From the IMG/VR virus record IMGVR_UViG_3300033150_000600, positions 1-49,729 of that record: a stretch of 49,729 nucleotides of DNA. One strand, given 5' to 3'. How positions within the stretch are numbered: position 1 is the stretch's first letter; each line of letters opens with the position of its first letter. Below the pieces are notes generated by a model. That model was not told where the DNA came from. It ran no database searches and was given only the letters and a program-made list of their open reading frames with translations. This document shows, in pieces, positions 3,345 through 38,005 of the stretch. The position numbers and the translations under genes are program-made. The DNA is from a virus.

Positions 3345-4636
3345 CTTTTCTTATAAACGCAAAGGATTGACTTTTGGGCATTGTGTCCTTTCAATTCAGT
3401 CATATTCCTATGCTCTATTGGTTTATATCCAAGCCAATGTTTTAAAAGATAATGAAGAACTGGTTTTGTCAAAGCAACCTTATGTCCTTCTTCTAAAATT
3501 GTTTTCGGCCCCAATTCGCCATCAGGGACAATTATTCCTAATATCCCGCCCTTTTTTAAAACTCTGTCCCATTCTTTTAAAGTTTTCTTTGTGTCCGAAA
3601 AATGCTCTAATGAATGACAAGCCATTACATAATCTAATTCTTCGTCTCTAAACATCCATAAATCATCTCCGGAAATCCCAACTATATCTACTCCCGGAAA
3701 AGGGAACAAATCAATGCCAATCGCATCTGGGTGAACTTTCCTATAACCACAACCGACATCTATTCCTCGACCTTGACAATACTTGGCAAGCAAACTTCTT
3801 TGCCCTTCACATTGTTTTGTCCACTTTTCAGTCGGCACTCCCTTTTCTTTCATTCTTTTCTCTCTTCTTTGTTGCTCTCTTTCATCATAAGGGTGATTTA
3901 TCTTTACTGGTATATTCGTTTCAGGGTCAATATCCGGATATGGTTTCTGCTCTCCTTGTTTAACTCTTTCTGGGCTATAAGTGAAATAATCTTTAAATCC
4001 TTTAACATACCCTTTGTTTTCTGGCATAAAACCAATATGGTTAGCATAAAGATAAGTTGCCATCGCATACTTCTTTTTAAGTTTTTTCATTGTATTGGCG
4101 AAAGTATGCGACTCCCAATGCCTTAATCTGCCAAATGGTCTATCTCCTAATTGAGCTAAATCGCTTCTCTTCTGAATCCGGAAAACAGAAGGCATACTTT
4201 TTATTGTATCAATCAATTCTCTGTCTTCGTCTATCTCTAATCTTGCTGTCCTTTGTATCCTCATACATATCGCTCCATAATCCGGATAGTATTTGTTAAA
4301 TAAATGAACTAATCTCTCCAACCAACAAGGTCGTAAGTTCGGAGGGATTAGGTCATCTTGGGTCGTAACAAATACTTCTGACTCAACCAGTTTAAATCCT
4401 TCATTTAATGCTTTAGGTTGACCTATGTTTTGGGATAGAAAAATATGCTCGCTAATCTTTCCAATCTTTTTACAATGTTTCAAGTAATCTTTTGTACCAT
4501 CGGTTGAAGCATTATCAATCACTATCAATCTGTAAGGATAAAAAGTTCTTTTGTAAATCTCGTCAATTGTTCTTTTAAGGAAATGAACTCTTTGGTATGT
4601 AACTAACAGAATATCAATTGGCTTGGTTTTTTCCAT
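3341..4636 (-). CDS. Fused GT2 glycosyltransferase and SAM methyltransferase, 431 aa
   Basis: Residues 1 to about 250 are a GT2 domain (IDILLVTYQRVHFLKRTIDE, LIVIDNASTDGTKDYL, EVFVTTQDDLIPP). After a charged linker, residues about 285-431 are a class I methyltransferase (GRGIDVGCGYRKVHPDAIGI as the SAM loop, then MACHSLEHFSDTKKTLKEW and VLKKGGILGIIVPD). The methyltransferase type matches those at 15.6, 20.0 and 20.5 kb. A fusion like this suggests that a sugar is transferred and methylated, or capped, by one protein. The glycosyltransferase half is a paralogue of the downstream gene. There is a 1-base gap to the upstream GT4 gene. Confidence 0.88.
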   Translation of the reverse strand: MEKTKPIDILLVTYQRVHFLKRTIDEIYKRTFYPYRLIVIDNASTDGTKDYLKHCKKIGKISEHIFLSQNIGQPKALNEGFKLVESEVFVTTQDDLIPPNLRPCWLERLVHLFNKYYPDYGAICMRIQRTARLEIDEDRELIDTIKSMPSVFRIQKRSDLAQLGDRPFGRLRHWESHTFANTMKKLKKKYAMATYLYANHIGFMPENKGYVKGFKDYFTYSPERVKQGEQKPYPDIDPETNIPVKINHPYDEREQQRREKRMKEKGVPTEKWTKQCEGQRSLLAKYCQGRGIDVGCGYRKVHPDAIGIDLFPFPGVDIVGISGDDLWMFRDEELDYVMACHSLEHFSDTKKTLKEWDRVLKKGGILGIIVPDGELGPKTILEEGHKVALTKPVLHYLLKHWLGYKPIEHRNMTELKGHNAQKSILCVYKKR

Positions 4637-29436: not shown

Positions 29437-30438
29437 CTATTTCCATAAATTCTTAAAATGTTCTTTAATCGTCTGTTTTGAAATTTTAACGCCATCTATT
29501 TCTATCATTTCTCCTTCATTTATTTCTTCATTTTCCTTTGGCAAACCAATCTCTTTTAGTTTTCCATATTTAATATCACCGCTGATAAACTTGCCACAAG
29601 TCAAAGTTTCTTCTTCCTCTGTTGTCTTTCTCCACTCGCAAACACCAATGAACACTTTACCCTCTACTTCGTATTTGCCTTTTACTTTAGAATAAAGTGC
29701 TACTCTGGAAGATTTTGCTTTTAAATCTCCACCAATTTTTTGAAACCCACCAATCTCTTGAGACCAGCCAATTTTTTGAGACCCACCAATCTCTTGAAAC
29801 CCATCAATTTTTTGAGACCCACCAATCTCTTGAAACCCACCAATCTTTTGAAACCAGTCAATTTTTTGAGACCCACCAATTTTTTGAGGCCCACCAATCT
29901 CTTGAGACCAGCCAATTTTTTGAGACCCACCAATCTCTTGAAACCCATCAATTTTTTGAGACCCACCAATCTTTTGAAACCCATCAATTTTTTGAGACCC
30001 ACCAATCTTTTGAAACCCATCAATTTTTTGAGACCCACCAATCTTTTGAGGCCCACCAATCTCTTGAAACCCATCAATCTTTTGAGGCCCACCAATCTCT
30101 TGAGACCCATCAATTTTTTGAGACCCACCAATCTCTTGAGACCCACCAATTTTTTGAGGCCCACCAATCTCTTGAGACCAGCCAATTTTTTGAGACCCAC
30201 CAATCTCTTCCCATTCATATACTTTATACGACTTATAAACATATATTGACTTCTCACATTTAAGATATTTAACCTCTAATCTACCTGTTATTTCAACATC
30301 GTTCTTAAAATAAACCGCTTCGTCTGGTTTAATAAAATCACCTTCTATTTTTTTGCCTGTATAAACATTGAATTTTATTCCGTAGAATTTTTTTGTTTTC
30401 ATAGATTTATTTAGTTCTTTTGGTTGGGTTTTGGTCAT
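29437..30438 (-). CDS. Repeat protein with 26 hexapeptide repeats, 333 aa
   Basis: Residues 78-233 are 26 copies of a hexapeptide, consensus (K/E)-I-(G/D)-G-(S/P/F)-Q, plus one degenerate copy. An Ile every six residues suggests a beta-solenoid (a three-turn hexapeptide or bactofilin-like helix). The flanks have a similar polymer-like style (FIKPDEAVYFKNDVEITGRL; later GKFISGDIKYGKLKEIGLPK). An ATG at 30402 (MKTKKFYGIKF), after an AAATAAATCT leader, may be the true start; 30438 forms an ATGA overlap. A filament or surface-patch role is inference. Confidence 0.82.
   Translation of the reverse strand: MTKTQPKELNKSMKTKKFYGIKFNVYTGKKIEGDFIKPDEAVYFKNDVEITGRLEVKYLKCEKSIYVYKSYKVYEWEEIGGSQKIGWSQEIGGPQKIGGSQEIGGSQKIDGSQEIGGPQKIDGFQEIGGPQKIGGSQKIDGFQKIGGSQKIDGFQKIGGSQKIDGFQEIGGSQKIGWSQEIGGPQKIGGSQKIDWFQKIGGFQEIGGSQKIDGFQEIGGSQKIGWSQEIGGFQKIGGDLKAKSSRVALYSKVKGKYEVEGKVFIGVCEWRKTTEEEETLTCGKFISGDIKYGKLKEIGLPKENEEINEGEMIEIDGVKISKQTIKEHFKNLWK
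29740..30207 (-). repeat. 26 tandem 18-bp coding repeats
   Basis: The unit reads about GGGTCTCAAAAAATTGGT on the minus strand, with one or two changes per copy. It encodes the hexapeptide array. All three plus-strand frames stay open because the unit is 18 bases and lacks stops. Copy number is likely to vary between strains. Confidence 0.92.
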
Positions 30439-31849: not shown

Positions 31850-32638
31850 TTATTTTTTGTAAATCGCCCGCATCACTATCTTGCCGTCGGGCATTTTTAC
31901 TTCTTCATAACGAACCGGTTCCGGTTCTTTATTTCTTTTAGCGGCCATTATATCATTGATAAACTTACCAACGGTTTCTAAAGTCCATTTGTGAAGCCAC
32001 TCGGTTTTTTGTAATGCCTTCATTGTTTCAATAATATCGTCGTCATCATATCCTACAAGGTCTTTAGCCGCTTTTAAGTTTCTCCGGAGTTCCATTCTGG
32101 CTTGTTCAACATTGTCAAATTTATACTTTTTAAATTCCCAATAAAGAGCAATAATCTGAATGTGTCTTGCTTTTTCTTTCATTTCCTTCAAGTAAGTCGA
32201 AAAGGAGAACTCATCAGCTTTGCTGATATTATTATTTAATTTTTGTTCTTTATTATTATTCGTGCCTTTCTTTTTTAGTGGTCCTACCCGTTCTTTTTTA
32301 GTGGTCTTATTTTCTTTTTTAGTGCTTAAATTTTTTAAGTGCTTTGTTTTTAATAAAGTATAAAGTGAAACTTTACCGCTTCTTCTTAAAATACTTATCG
32401 CTTTTGCTTCTTCTAATTTCTTTAATGACTTTAATACAGTTGGTTGTGTAAGGCCAGTCAATTCCATTATAGTTCTCGTTGATGGCCGGCATTTCTGTTT
32501 TTGGTTAACAAAATAAGCAAGGGCGTGATAGACAAGTTTATCAGACGCATTGAATTTTTTATATTGTAAAATTGCTCTTTCAACCCAATACCAATCTCCA
32601 TTTCTTAAATCTCTAACTTCAAAGTTTTCTTCTTTCAT
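31850..32638 (-). CDS. Primosome-like replication protein with winged helix, 262 aa
   Basis: Residues about 1-95 hold a winged helix of the HTH_36 type: YKKFNASDKLVYHALAYFVN, CRPSTRTIMELTGLTQPTVL, KSLKKLEEAKAISILRRSG. A Lys/Asn-rich linker follows. The C-terminal part (about 145-250) is helical with YDDDDIIETMKALQKTEWLH and KFINDIMAAKRNK, like DnaD/replication-initiator tails. It probably begins phage replication by loading the host helicase. It is read from the strong promoter at 32.75 kb, after a 30-codon leader ORF joined by ATGA. Confidence 0.8.
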   Translation of the reverse strand: MKEENFEVRDLRNGDWYWVERAILQYKKFNASDKLVYHALAYFVNQKQKCRPSTRTIMELTGLTQPTVLKSLKKLEEAKAISILRRSGKVSLYTLLKTKHLKNLSTKKENKTTKKERVGPLKKKGTNNNKEQKLNNNISKADEFSFSTYLKEMKEKARHIQIIALYWEFKKYKFDNVEQARMELRRNLKAAKDLVGYDDDDIIETMKALQKTEWLHKWTLETVGKFINDIMAAKRNKEPEPVRYEEVKMPDGKIVMRAIYKK

Positions 32639-32727
32639 ATAACCAAAAAGGAGTATTCAATGGCAGGAATAGAAATCCAAAAACTTCTTCCTTTTGAATA
32701 CTCCTTTTTGATTTCTATTCCTACCAT
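32635..32727 (-). CDS. Leader ORF of 30 codons, possibly leaderless
   Basis: The ATG at 32725-32727 opens MVGIEIKKEYSKGRSFWISI, followed by ten more residues, and its TGA overlaps the ATG of the primosome-like gene. The predicted transcription start (seven bases after the -10 box) is at or one base before this ATG. The coding strand itself is made of the two inverted repeats, so translation of this peptide would control which hairpin can form. Confidence 0.5.
   Translation of the reverse strand: MVGIEIKKEYSKGRSFWISIPAIEYSFLVI
32645..32725 (-). promoter_or_regulatory. Two interleaved inverted repeats: mutually exclusive hairpins
   Basis: Arm A (32645-32660) is the exact reverse complement of A' (32694-32709), 16 of 16. 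Arm B (32662-32677) is the reverse complement of B' (32710-32725), 15 of 16. The order A-B-A'-B' means A:A' and B:B' cannot both form as long stems. The region lies between the promoter and the primosome-like gene and looks like an attenuator or translation switch. Confidence 0.75.
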
Positions 32728-32734
32728 ATAATTT

Positions 32735-32763
32735 ATTCTATTAAATTTTTAAAGTGAAGTCAA
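32735..32763 (-). promoter_or_regulatory. Sigma70 promoter for the primosome-like operon
   Basis: TTGACT (32758-32763), 17 bases and TAGAAT (32735-32740). It is one of the best-formed promoters in the window. The predicted start is near 32728, at the ATG of the leader ORF. Confidence 0.8.
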
Positions 32764-32772
32764 GAGATACGG

Positions 32773-32836
32773 GGGCTGAATAGGAATTGAACCTATTATT
32801 TGTCGCCAAGACCAGCCCATAGCCCCTTCTGGGGCT
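32773..32836 (-). ncRNA. tRNA-like element: acceptor stem and T-arm only, with upstream hairpin
   Basis: On the minus strand GGGCTGG (32818-32812) pairs over 7 bp with TCAGCCC (32779-32773). Directly inside it ATAGG-TTCAATT-CCTAT is a perfect T-arm (5 bp, 7-base loop). The D and anticodon arms are replaced by 15 bases. The whole is 46 nt. A 6-bp hairpin (AGCCCC/GGGGCT, 32821-32836) stands upstream. Acceptor plus T-arm is the minimal substrate of RNase P, so cleavage near 32818 is predicted. No CCA is encoded; a decayed tRNA is the alternative. Confidence 0.6.
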
Positions 32837-34084: not shown

Positions 34085-34363
34085 TTATTTAATCTTAATG
34101 TTTCTTTTTATCAAAGGCACTAATTCAATCCAACCTTTTTCTTCTAATCTTTTTAGCCTGTACTGGACTAATTGCGGGCTAATGTGTAAAGCGTCAGCTA
34201 TTTCTGTTCTCAAGGGAGTTACCTTGTAATCGCAAAGGAATTCAAGAATAAACTCCCAAAGTTCTTGCTCTTGTTTGGTCAATTTTGATTTTCTTTTCGT
34301 TTTTAATGCCTTTACTTTTTTGTTGTTGATTCTTTTAAAGATTTGTCTAATTTGTCTTTTCAT
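34085..34363 (-). CDS. LexA-like winged-helix protein, 92 aa
   Basis: A Lys/Arg-rich start is followed by KLTKQEQELWEFILEFLCDY, then TPLRTEIADALHISPQLVQY and RLKRLEEKGWIELVP, a winged helix like the DNA-binding half of LexA. It has no protease domain. It may repress or time the early operon. Its start overlaps the upstream zinc-ribbon gene by ATGA. Confidence 0.78.
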   Translation of the reverse strand: MKRQIRQIFKRINNKKVKALKTKRKSKLTKQEQELWEFILEFLCDYKVTPLRTEIADALHISPQLVQYRLKRLEEKGWIELVPLIKRNIKIK

Positions 34364-35980: not shown

Positions 35981-38005
35981 TTACTTAAAAATATAATTAA
36001 GTTTTTTACGAGTTTTTGGTCCGACCTTTTTGCCTTGTAATAATTCAATTTCTTCTAATGGGGCAACTTGATATTTAATTTGGAACTCATAGACTGCTTT
36101 AGCTGTAATTCTACCATAATAACCAGTACTCGGGACATTAACAGGAAACAATTCCTCATATTTCAGGCATTCTTGGAGCATTGCTACTTCATAGTTTCGC
36201 ATACCATAAGATAAATCTTTTTCAAACTTATGCTTTGGTTTTTCTTTATCAATTTCATCTCTCCAAGTGTTCTTAAGAAACTGGAAGTATCCCCAAGCTC
36301 GAATAGGTTGGTCTTCTGTTATTATTCCTTGTCCATCAAATCCCCACTTATAATCCCAGCTATTATCAAAAATAATCGCCTTCTTGCCTTTCCATAAACA
36401 ATAATCAACTCCGGCAACCAAATGTCCATACTTACCATCTTTTCTGTTAACAACCTCTCCTTTTTTCCAATCGCCGGGGTTAAATCTACAAGCAAGAGCC
36501 ACGCCTTTGCCTTGAGAAATAACAGTCGCAATTGCATCAAAATCTATTTCTTTTGACTGGACATAATTGCCTGCTTTTCCAACTAAAGCCACTTGTTCAT
36601 CTATTGTCTTTCTGTCATCAAACTTATTCATTTCTTCTTCATTAAGGCCCTGTGATGGCATCAGTTGCTCGAAAGTAGCCCCATATTTATAACCAATGTG
36701 AAGACCATTCTGGAGCCACATTCCTTTTGAGCCATAATTAGTCCTTCTCGAATAAATATCTCTTGCTGAATAATGAACAAACTTTCCTTCTTCAACAAAA
36801 TTTTCAATGCCTAAAAGTTTAGCAATAGTTTGGGCCACACAATTATGGACAGCAATAGAATTTACAATGTAAGAGTTATCATCTTCTATTTCTAAATTAT
36901 AAAGATGACCTCCAGAGTATTCCGGAACTTTTGTGATTTTTCTTATTTTTCTAAACAAATAATCCTTTCTTTCAAGAGTATATCTGTTAGTTTTGTTCTC
37001 CTCAGGATATACGACTAAATCCCAAACAGGTAATTTATTTTTTTCTTTTTTTCTTTTTAAAATAGAACTTCTAATTTTATTGCGTAAAAGAATATGATAC
37101 ATTTGCCAAATCAATTCTTCGGAGGTAGAAACGCCTATATTTCTTTTCTCTCTTCTATGCCCATCGCCTTCTTTCCATCCTTCGTAAATCTTAAATTGTA
37201 ATTCAGGATTAAGAAACATCAATCTTTTATTTATTCTTTTTTTATCACATTTTTCATTACCTAATTCTAAAAATAGTTTTCTTAGTTCTTTATTTCCGAA
37301 AACAATATTTGTGCTGGTAGGTTTTGAAAGATTTTCTTTAATATGAAAATTAAAATTCAATCTTTTAAGAGTATTGATTATTTTTTTCTTAAAAATTTCC
37401 TCATGTCTGCCAATAGATAAAGTTATTTGATAATCTCCTAAATATCCTTCAGCTAAATATACTCCTAAAAGCCACAAAAAATCTGGATTTTTTTCAATTT
37501 GATAAATAGTTTTATCAGCAACAATATTATCTAAATAAGGAATAGCAATATAATCATTTTTTGTTAAATCTTTTGCTTCTTTCCAACCATTTAAGGTTAA
37601 AAAAGGATGCTCTAAACTACATTCAATTTCTCTATACATTCCATAAATTTGAATTTTAAGAGTATTCCCTTGCCACTTTCGTTTAAATTTTTTAATAACT
37701 TTTTTTACATTCCCAAGATGAGTTATCACATAATCTCCTTCTCTAATTTCTCCAATCGGCCTATAACTAAAATTTTCCATTAAAATTGGAGTATTATAAT
37801 GAAAACAACTTCCACTCCCATCTTGATTGAAAATAGGAAACTTACGCCAATCTTTTGGTTGTTTCGTTTCCCATTTAACTGCTTCAGCTGTTAAGACCTC
37901 TTCTGCTAAGTAATCTAAATCTCTTTCTTTTTTAGGTCTTGGGTCTTTAACAAGACCAGTTCCCGGCGGAACATAAAATTTTTTAAACCTTTTAAAAAAT
38001 AACAT
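35981..38005 (-). CDS. Papain-like (C1A) cysteine peptidase with peptidoglycan-binding domain and intein; probable endolysin, 674 aa
   Basis: The spliced protein is about 352 residues. KFPIFNQDGSGS, then the intein (67-388), then CVAQTIAKLLG gives Q-x5-C, the papain oxyanion Gln and catalytic Cys389. The catalytic His528 is in KYGHLVAGVDY and Asn548 in IFDNSWDYKWGFDGQG, as in papain. Residues about 597-671 are a PG_binding_1 domain (GMRNYEVAMLQECLKYEELF, GRITAKAVYEFQIKYQV). It lies between an XhlA-like and a holin-like gene, so it is probably the endolysin, cutting peptide bridges. A papain-fold peptidase is rare for that role. Confidence 0.88.
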   Translation of the reverse strand: MLFFKRFKKFYVPPGTGLVKDPRPKKERDLDYLAEEVLTAEAVKWETKQPKDWRKFPIFNQDGSGSCFHYNTPILMENFSYRPIGEIREGDYVITHLGNVKKVIKKFKRKWQGNTLKIQIYGMYREIECSLEHPFLTLNGWKEAKDLTKNDYIAIPYLDNIVADKTIYQIEKNPDFLWLLGVYLAEGYLGDYQITLSIGRHEEIFKKKIINTLKRLNFNFHIKENLSKPTSTNIVFGNKELRKLFLELGNEKCDKKRINKRLMFLNPELQFKIYEGWKEGDGHRREKRNIGVSTSEELIWQMYHILLRNKIRSSILKRKKEKNKLPVWDLVVYPEENKTNRYTLERKDYLFRKIRKITKVPEYSGGHLYNLEIEDDNSYIVNSIAVHNCVAQTIAKLLGIENFVEEGKFVHYSARDIYSRRTNYGSKGMWLQNGLHIGYKYGATFEQLMPSQGLNEEEMNKFDDRKTIDEQVALVGKAGNYVQSKEIDFDAIATVISQGKGVALACRFNPGDWKKGEVVNRKDGKYGHLVAGVDYCLWKGKKAIIFDNSWDYKWGFDGQGIITEDQPIRAWGYFQFLKNTWRDEIDKEKPKHKFEKDLSYGMRNYEVAMLQECLKYEELFPVNVPSTGYYGRITAKAVYEFQIKYQVAPLEEIELLQGKKVGPKTRKKLNYIFK
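36842..37807 (-). mobile_element. LAGLIDADG intein in the endolysin, 322 aa
   Basis: It starts CFHYNTPILMENFSYRPIGE (block A) and has CSLEHPFLTLNGW (block B). LLGVYLAEGYLGDY and IYEGWKEGDGHRREK are two LAGLIDADG motifs. The end is HLYNLEIEDDNSYIV ... AVHN followed by Cys. All splicing residues are standard (Cys1, block B His, HN, +1 Cys). The +1 Cys is also the catalytic Cys of the peptidase, so the unspliced protein cannot have a normal active site. Confidence 0.95.

Follow-up and report, generated by a model that had tools for sequence, protein, structure and literature searches.

Abutting interleaved hairpins ahead of a replication initiator gene: a putative bistable RNA leader in a probable Patescibacteria phage

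The replication initiator gene (rep) of a phage genome is directly preceded, on the minus strand, by an element of four abutting arms arranged as P-Q-spacer-P'-Q' (32727-32644 of the window, the whole 49,729-nucleotide stretch of viral DNA that was analysed). The element is real, and it probably represents a new arrangement within a known type, the alternative-hairpin leader, for which we can propose a mechanism. We tentatively propose, with somewhat less than even confidence, that the 5' leader of the rep mRNA is a bistable RNA that would set where and how well translation starts. Such a leader would be a simple and testable two-state switch in a phage with very few Shine-Dalgarno sites, and its interleaved topology is unlike the neighbouring-pair logic of textbook attenuators.

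A phage genome with a lambda-O-type initiator gene

The window, an IMG/VR virus record, carries a 114-bp direct terminal repeat; the genome is therefore circular and complete, with a length of about 49.6 kb. Nearly every gene lies on the minus strand. Relatives of its terminase in genome contigs were found mostly in Patescibacteria MAGs (Peregrini-, Peri-, Nomura-, Taylor-, Portnoy- and Parcubacteria), which suggests that the host is probably a Patescibacterium. To our knowledge, very little is known about gene control in Patescibacteria phages.

The gene at 31850-32638 (minus strand) encodes a protein of 262 amino acids that is, judged by its domain and family matches, a lambda-O-type replication initiator. 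An N-terminal HTH_36 domain scored 37 bits against a cut-off of 25, and the protein matched phrog_270 (4.7e-9) as well as phrog_8102, phrog_1032 and phrog_428. A repeat scan revealed tandem repeats of 21-23 bp within the gene (32265-32334, minus strand), which by analogy are possible iterons of a lambda-like origin. Shine-Dalgarno sequences are nearly absent before the genes of this phage, rep included, and start/stop overlaps of the ATGA type (gap -4) are common in its genome.

Elsewhere in the window, the region 35981-38005 encodes a papain-like protein whose C-terminus resembles an endolysin and whose sequence is split by an intein carrying a LAGLIDADG domain; the relative in L047 has no intein. 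The protein encoded at 29437-30438 contains a long array of 12-residue repeats (GGSQKIDGFQEI..., DNA period 36 bp).

Four abutting arms between the promoter and rep

The original prediction had placed a sigma70 promoter ahead of a short open reading frame (ORF). We found good motifs that match it, a -35 hexamer TTGACT (32758-32763) and a -10 hexamer TAGAAT (32735-32740), both on the minus strand and spaced by 17 nt. Seven nucleotides separate TAGAAT from the ATG at 32727, so that the transcript is predicted to start at this ATG or 1 nt before it. This promoter is a prediction from motifs, and motifs of this kind are no commoner than expected from shuffled sequence (31 found, 37 expected). From the same ATG runs a 30-codon leader ORF (MVGIEIKKEYSKGRSFWISIPAIEYSFLVI; 32635-32727, minus strand), a candidate coding sequence whose TGA overlaps the ATG of rep (ATGA, 32635-32638), exactly as had been proposed.

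Inverted-repeat scanning and folding defined the parts of the element, all on the minus strand. Arm P (32710-32727, 18 nt) opens with the leader-ORF ATG, which is also the predicted 5' end of the transcript. Arm Q (AAAAAGGAGTATTCAA; 32694-32710) has 16-17 nt, sharing one base with P when the pairing is counted as 17 bp. A 16-nt spacer (32678-32693) is followed by P' (32660-32677), the partner of P, and by Q' (32644-32660), the partner of Q, which ends 5 nt upstream of the rep ATG (32638). The interleaved inverted repeats of the earlier claim are therefore present, and we measured their pairing at 17/17 for Q/Q' and 17/18 for P/P'. In the minus-strand RNA the latter becomes 18/18, because the sole mismatch is there a U.G pair. 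No gap separates P from Q or P' from Q', and the displacement between partners is identical for both pairs, at exactly 50 bp.

We found no interleaved pair of this kind in 40 dinucleotide shuffles of the window, where the best single arm scored 15. Under a zero-gap pattern, a criterion that was fixed only after a second element (L249, below) had been seen, the window element scored 33, the best in about 1.95 Mb of DNA from related phages and Patescibacteria, and shuffled sequence scored at most 18. Rfam gave no match in the window at the gathering threshold, with sub-threshold matches only, at E up to 10.

On the opposite strand the element carries a weak promoter motif. An AAGGAG...ATG arrangement on the plus strand was considered as a Shine-Dalgarno start and set aside, since such sites are rare in this genome. 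Immediately ahead of the promoter, at 32776-32836 (minus strand), lies a tRNA-like sequence without an anticodon arm (GGGCTGGTCTTGGCGACAAATAATAGGTTCAATTCCTATTCAGCCCCC), with a T-arm motif (GGTTCAATTCC) and a closing stem. ARAGORN made no call there and Rfam returned a sub-threshold tRNA-Sec match; possible identities are a tRNA relic, an attachment site and a tRNA-like RNA with a function.

Two alternative folds of similar stability

The loops that would connect P to Q and P' to Q' have zero length, and the two full helices are therefore predicted to exclude each other. From this geometry, helices of 17-18 bp should be unable to coexist in full, as a full pseudoknot would be sterically impossible, and partial forms may still occur. 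When either hairpin was enforced in a 128-nt transcript, the folding energies were -34.3 kcal/mol for P-P' and -34.0 kcal/mol for Q-Q', so that the leader has the two exclusive folds of similar stability that characterize alternative-hairpin leaders. The fold of the leader RNA is more stable than that of shuffled sequences (z = -4.4; none of 200 shuffles was as stable). Prefix folding showed P-P' to be complete at nucleotide 68, ahead of the synthesis of Q'. The idea of two mutually exclusive hairpins is thus well supported by the abutting arms, the near-equal energies and the recurrence of the layout in a related phage.

These features suggest how a bistable leader might work. P-P' would bury the 5'-terminal leader AUG and leave open the stretch ahead of the rep AUG, and it could form first during transcription. 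Q-Q' would free the leader AUG and bury positions -22 to -6 relative to the rep AUG. With abutting arms, one full hairpin could form at a time, and one of two neighbouring start codons would be accessible; in the window, rep would be translated either directly or by coupling. Candidate triggers that might favour one fold include a ribosome at the leader AUG, the Rep protein and some further factor. With Shine-Dalgarno sites so scarce in this genome, the absence of structure ahead of the AUG would be important, and a stable hairpin directly before it should hinder initiation, which makes control at the level of translation the simplest reading. That the only mismatch between the arms is a U.G pair in the sense RNA, and that the end of P coincides with the predicted start of the transcript, both count in favour of the bistable leader.

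Recurrence of the layout in related genomes

A protein scan of viral contigs detected no rep homologues, a protein search with the Cas4-like neighbour found no direct relative, and DNA searches found no homologue of the element. This counts against the bistable leader, because no compensatory changes can be counted. A near-identical record (G001) ends inside the gene at 29437-30438 and so does not reach rep.

The phage G1100 (L249) has a terminase 61% identical to that of the window, and it also encodes homologues of Rep and of the LexA-like and DUF1016-like proteins. At L249 157-216 we found AATGAGATGC-AGTGATGGAGCTACCAG-tttggg-GCATCTCATT-CTGGTAGCTCCATCACT, a P-Q-spacer-P'-Q' element in which every pair is perfect and there are no gaps. 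It lies 10 nt upstream of the ATG of a gene encoding 136 amino acids, and its sequence is unrelated to that of the window element. On the sequences compared, this recurrence is one of shared geometry with unrelated letters and not of covariation. The P arm of L249 also holds an ATG, from which the frame is open through the element and in frame with the 136-amino-acid gene, whereas the leader ORF of the window is not in frame with rep. A switch at L249 would determine whether a single protein is made in a long or a short form.

Three features of this phage count against the bistable leader. The Q fold of L249 is far more stable than the P fold (-41.6 versus -19.4), and an equal balance is therefore not a general feature. 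The element is absent upstream of the rep gene of G1100 itself and is therefore no constant component of rep control. The third is the difference in frame noted above.

We scanned 3,677 start regions of the phage family and found four zero-gap elements 5-13 nt before a start: the window element, L249 and two in G018. Five shuffled sets of the same start regions gave 1 match. The two G018 copies, 9 and 13 nt before their starts, are weak, with scores at the limit and P arms that lack an ATG. The layout at start codons in L249 and G018 counts towards a bistable leader, and the marginal nature of the G018 copies and the late choice of the zero-gap criterion count against it.

Template switching yields perfect inverted copies, and two such copies without function could in principle have left the element as a mutational by-product. 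This account would require two separate copying events whose junctions are exact, and this in each of two related phages, both times just before a start codon; we consider it very improbable.

Looser interleaved hairpins were found in a survey of phrog_270-type rep genes from Patescibacteria, in 3 of 58 genes (L061, L109 and L110), where they end 14-16 nt before the rep start. No interleaved arms were found in a further 28 Patescibacteria rep genes. The arms are therefore not a general feature of rep genes, and the three cases count in favour of the bistable leader. L061 is a phage with lysin-rep synteny, and its P arm of 7-10 nt could alone be due to chance. Searches for relatives of the rep proteins of L061 and L110, aimed at covariation, found none. 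Looser interleaved pairs also precede some other mobile-element genes, such as a serine recombinase gene in L140.

The same arms could instead form a transcription attenuator, with Q-Q' and its A-tract and U-run as an intrinsic terminator and P-P' as an antiterminator that traps Q in its loop. In the window, CTCCTTTTT stands at the stem end, a run of five U follows Q', and Q' ends only 5 nt from the ATG, which means that transcription of rep from the predicted promoter must cross Q-Q'. Clearer terminators are found in the looser Patescibacteria elements, at the L140 serine recombinase (+29) and in L109 and L110, which have T-runs after Q'. However, the window element has a borderline terminator score (-4.2) and a loop of 33 nt, a simple terminator scan of the window did not list Q-Q', and neither L249 nor G018, the zero-gap relatives, has a U-run after Q'. 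We regard attenuation as doubtful for this family and as a less likely alternative for the window. The original prediction had compared the element to an attenuation or translation-coupling switch; our data favour an effect of the bistable leader on translation initiation.

A role of the arms as DNA was also considered. A repressor or initiator might bind them as paired operator or origin sites, or they might form a cruciform. The long inverted arms lie next to a promoter and to the initiator gene, the gene for a LexA-type DNA-binding protein is close by (34085-34363), and in phage G014 a DnaA-box-like inverted pair stands ahead of rep. These points are set against the iteron-like repeats inside rep, which are a more typical place for a lambda-type origin, the unrelated arm sequences in different phages, the exact end of P at the predicted transcript start and the position of the copies 5-13 nt before start codons. 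On balance we find a DNA-level element quite unlikely.

The G014 rep gene had itself been examined as a possible bearer of the element and was rejected, as DnaA-box-like sequences and small hairpins, and no interleaved arms, lie upstream of it. The inverted pair there (TGTGGATAA/TTATCCACT; L047 5030-5090, minus strand), directly before rep, is a possible host-DnaA-dependent origin.

Returning to the bistable leader, it is conceivable, if on the doubtful side, that the elements belong to a new class of start-codon selectors in Patescibacteria phages, in which abutting interleaved hairpins with a conserved geometry and free sequence would be used before different genes. One hairpin would hide an upstream start codon and the other that of the gene itself, leaving a single start accessible. 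A leader that keeps its pairing geometry and not its letters would escape ordinary covariance searches.

The 30-codon leader ORF

We examined whether the leader ORF has the properties of a coding sequence. Its codon usage falls at the 36th percentile of real coding fragments, and 7% of out-of-frame open stretches do equally well. A 22-codon ORF on the opposite strand of the element scores higher, which means that codon usage does not discriminate coding status here. We estimate the chance of a 30-codon open frame at 33% GC at about 10%, which is not improbable. The missing Shine-Dalgarno sequence at rep is no argument for translational coupling, because almost no gene of this phage has one.

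These results bear on a leader-peptide switch, in which leaderless translation of the 30-codon ORF would melt the arms and re-initiation at the ATGA would feed rep. The ORF does extend from the predicted 5' end to the ATGA at rep, its codon usage is coding-like, and the ATG in the P arm of L249 also opens a frame through the element. Against this, L061 and L110 have no comparable leader ORF, which is accordingly not a general feature of such elements; a frame of this length is not rare at this GC and is outscored by the opposite-strand ORF; and ATGA-type overlaps are common in the genome. We judge a leader-peptide switch unlikely. The earlier suggestion that translation of the ORF, or its absence, decides which hairpin forms is thus weakly supported: the open frame of L249 speaks for it, the ORF-less elements speak against it, and codon usage does not discriminate.

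Comparison with known leaders

Short leader ORFs at the start of an initiator gene, together with competing RNA structures, are known from repY-repZ of IncI/IncB plasmids (ColIb-P9) and tap-repA of the IncFII plasmid R1, and the coupling in both provides a precedent for re-initiation in the leader-peptide reading. The window resembles them in having a short ORF, of 30 codons, that overlaps the initiator start through ATGA. In these plasmids an antisense RNA is central and repZ has a true short pseudoknot, whereas the helices of the window are too long and too tightly joined for a full pseudoknot, and the antisense RNA is a feature of the plasmids. Transcription attenuators of rep genes are found in pIP501 repR and pT181 repC, which have alternative leader hairpins, one of them terminator-like; there, neighbouring segments compete, driven by an antisense RNA. 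The window element differs from these in its topology, in which pairing 1:3 competes with pairing 2:4, and in its borderline terminator character. Its initiator resembles lambda-O-type genes in the HTH_36 and phrog matches and the possible in-gene iterons, and we know of no interleaved hairpin leader for lambda O.

Structured RNA of the LOOT family (Rfam RF03000) occurs in three of the Patescibacteria loci examined, whereas the window element matches neither RF03000 nor any other Rfam family above threshold. The LOOT matches are at L073 1991-2115, L074 13360-13483 and L129 2886-2999, and one of them overlaps an interleaved repeat before a nuclease-like gene. Two further elements were observed in passing. 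In the Patescibacteria genome L140, a very strong interleaved leader resembling a terminator and antiterminator (2449-2560) precedes the serine recombinase gene. On the minus strand of L052, upstream of the ATG at 4499, there are three copies of the P motif TCTAACAA, one ahead of Q, one within the loop in inverted orientation and one following Q', an arrangement that resembles a hairpin with flanking direct repeats.
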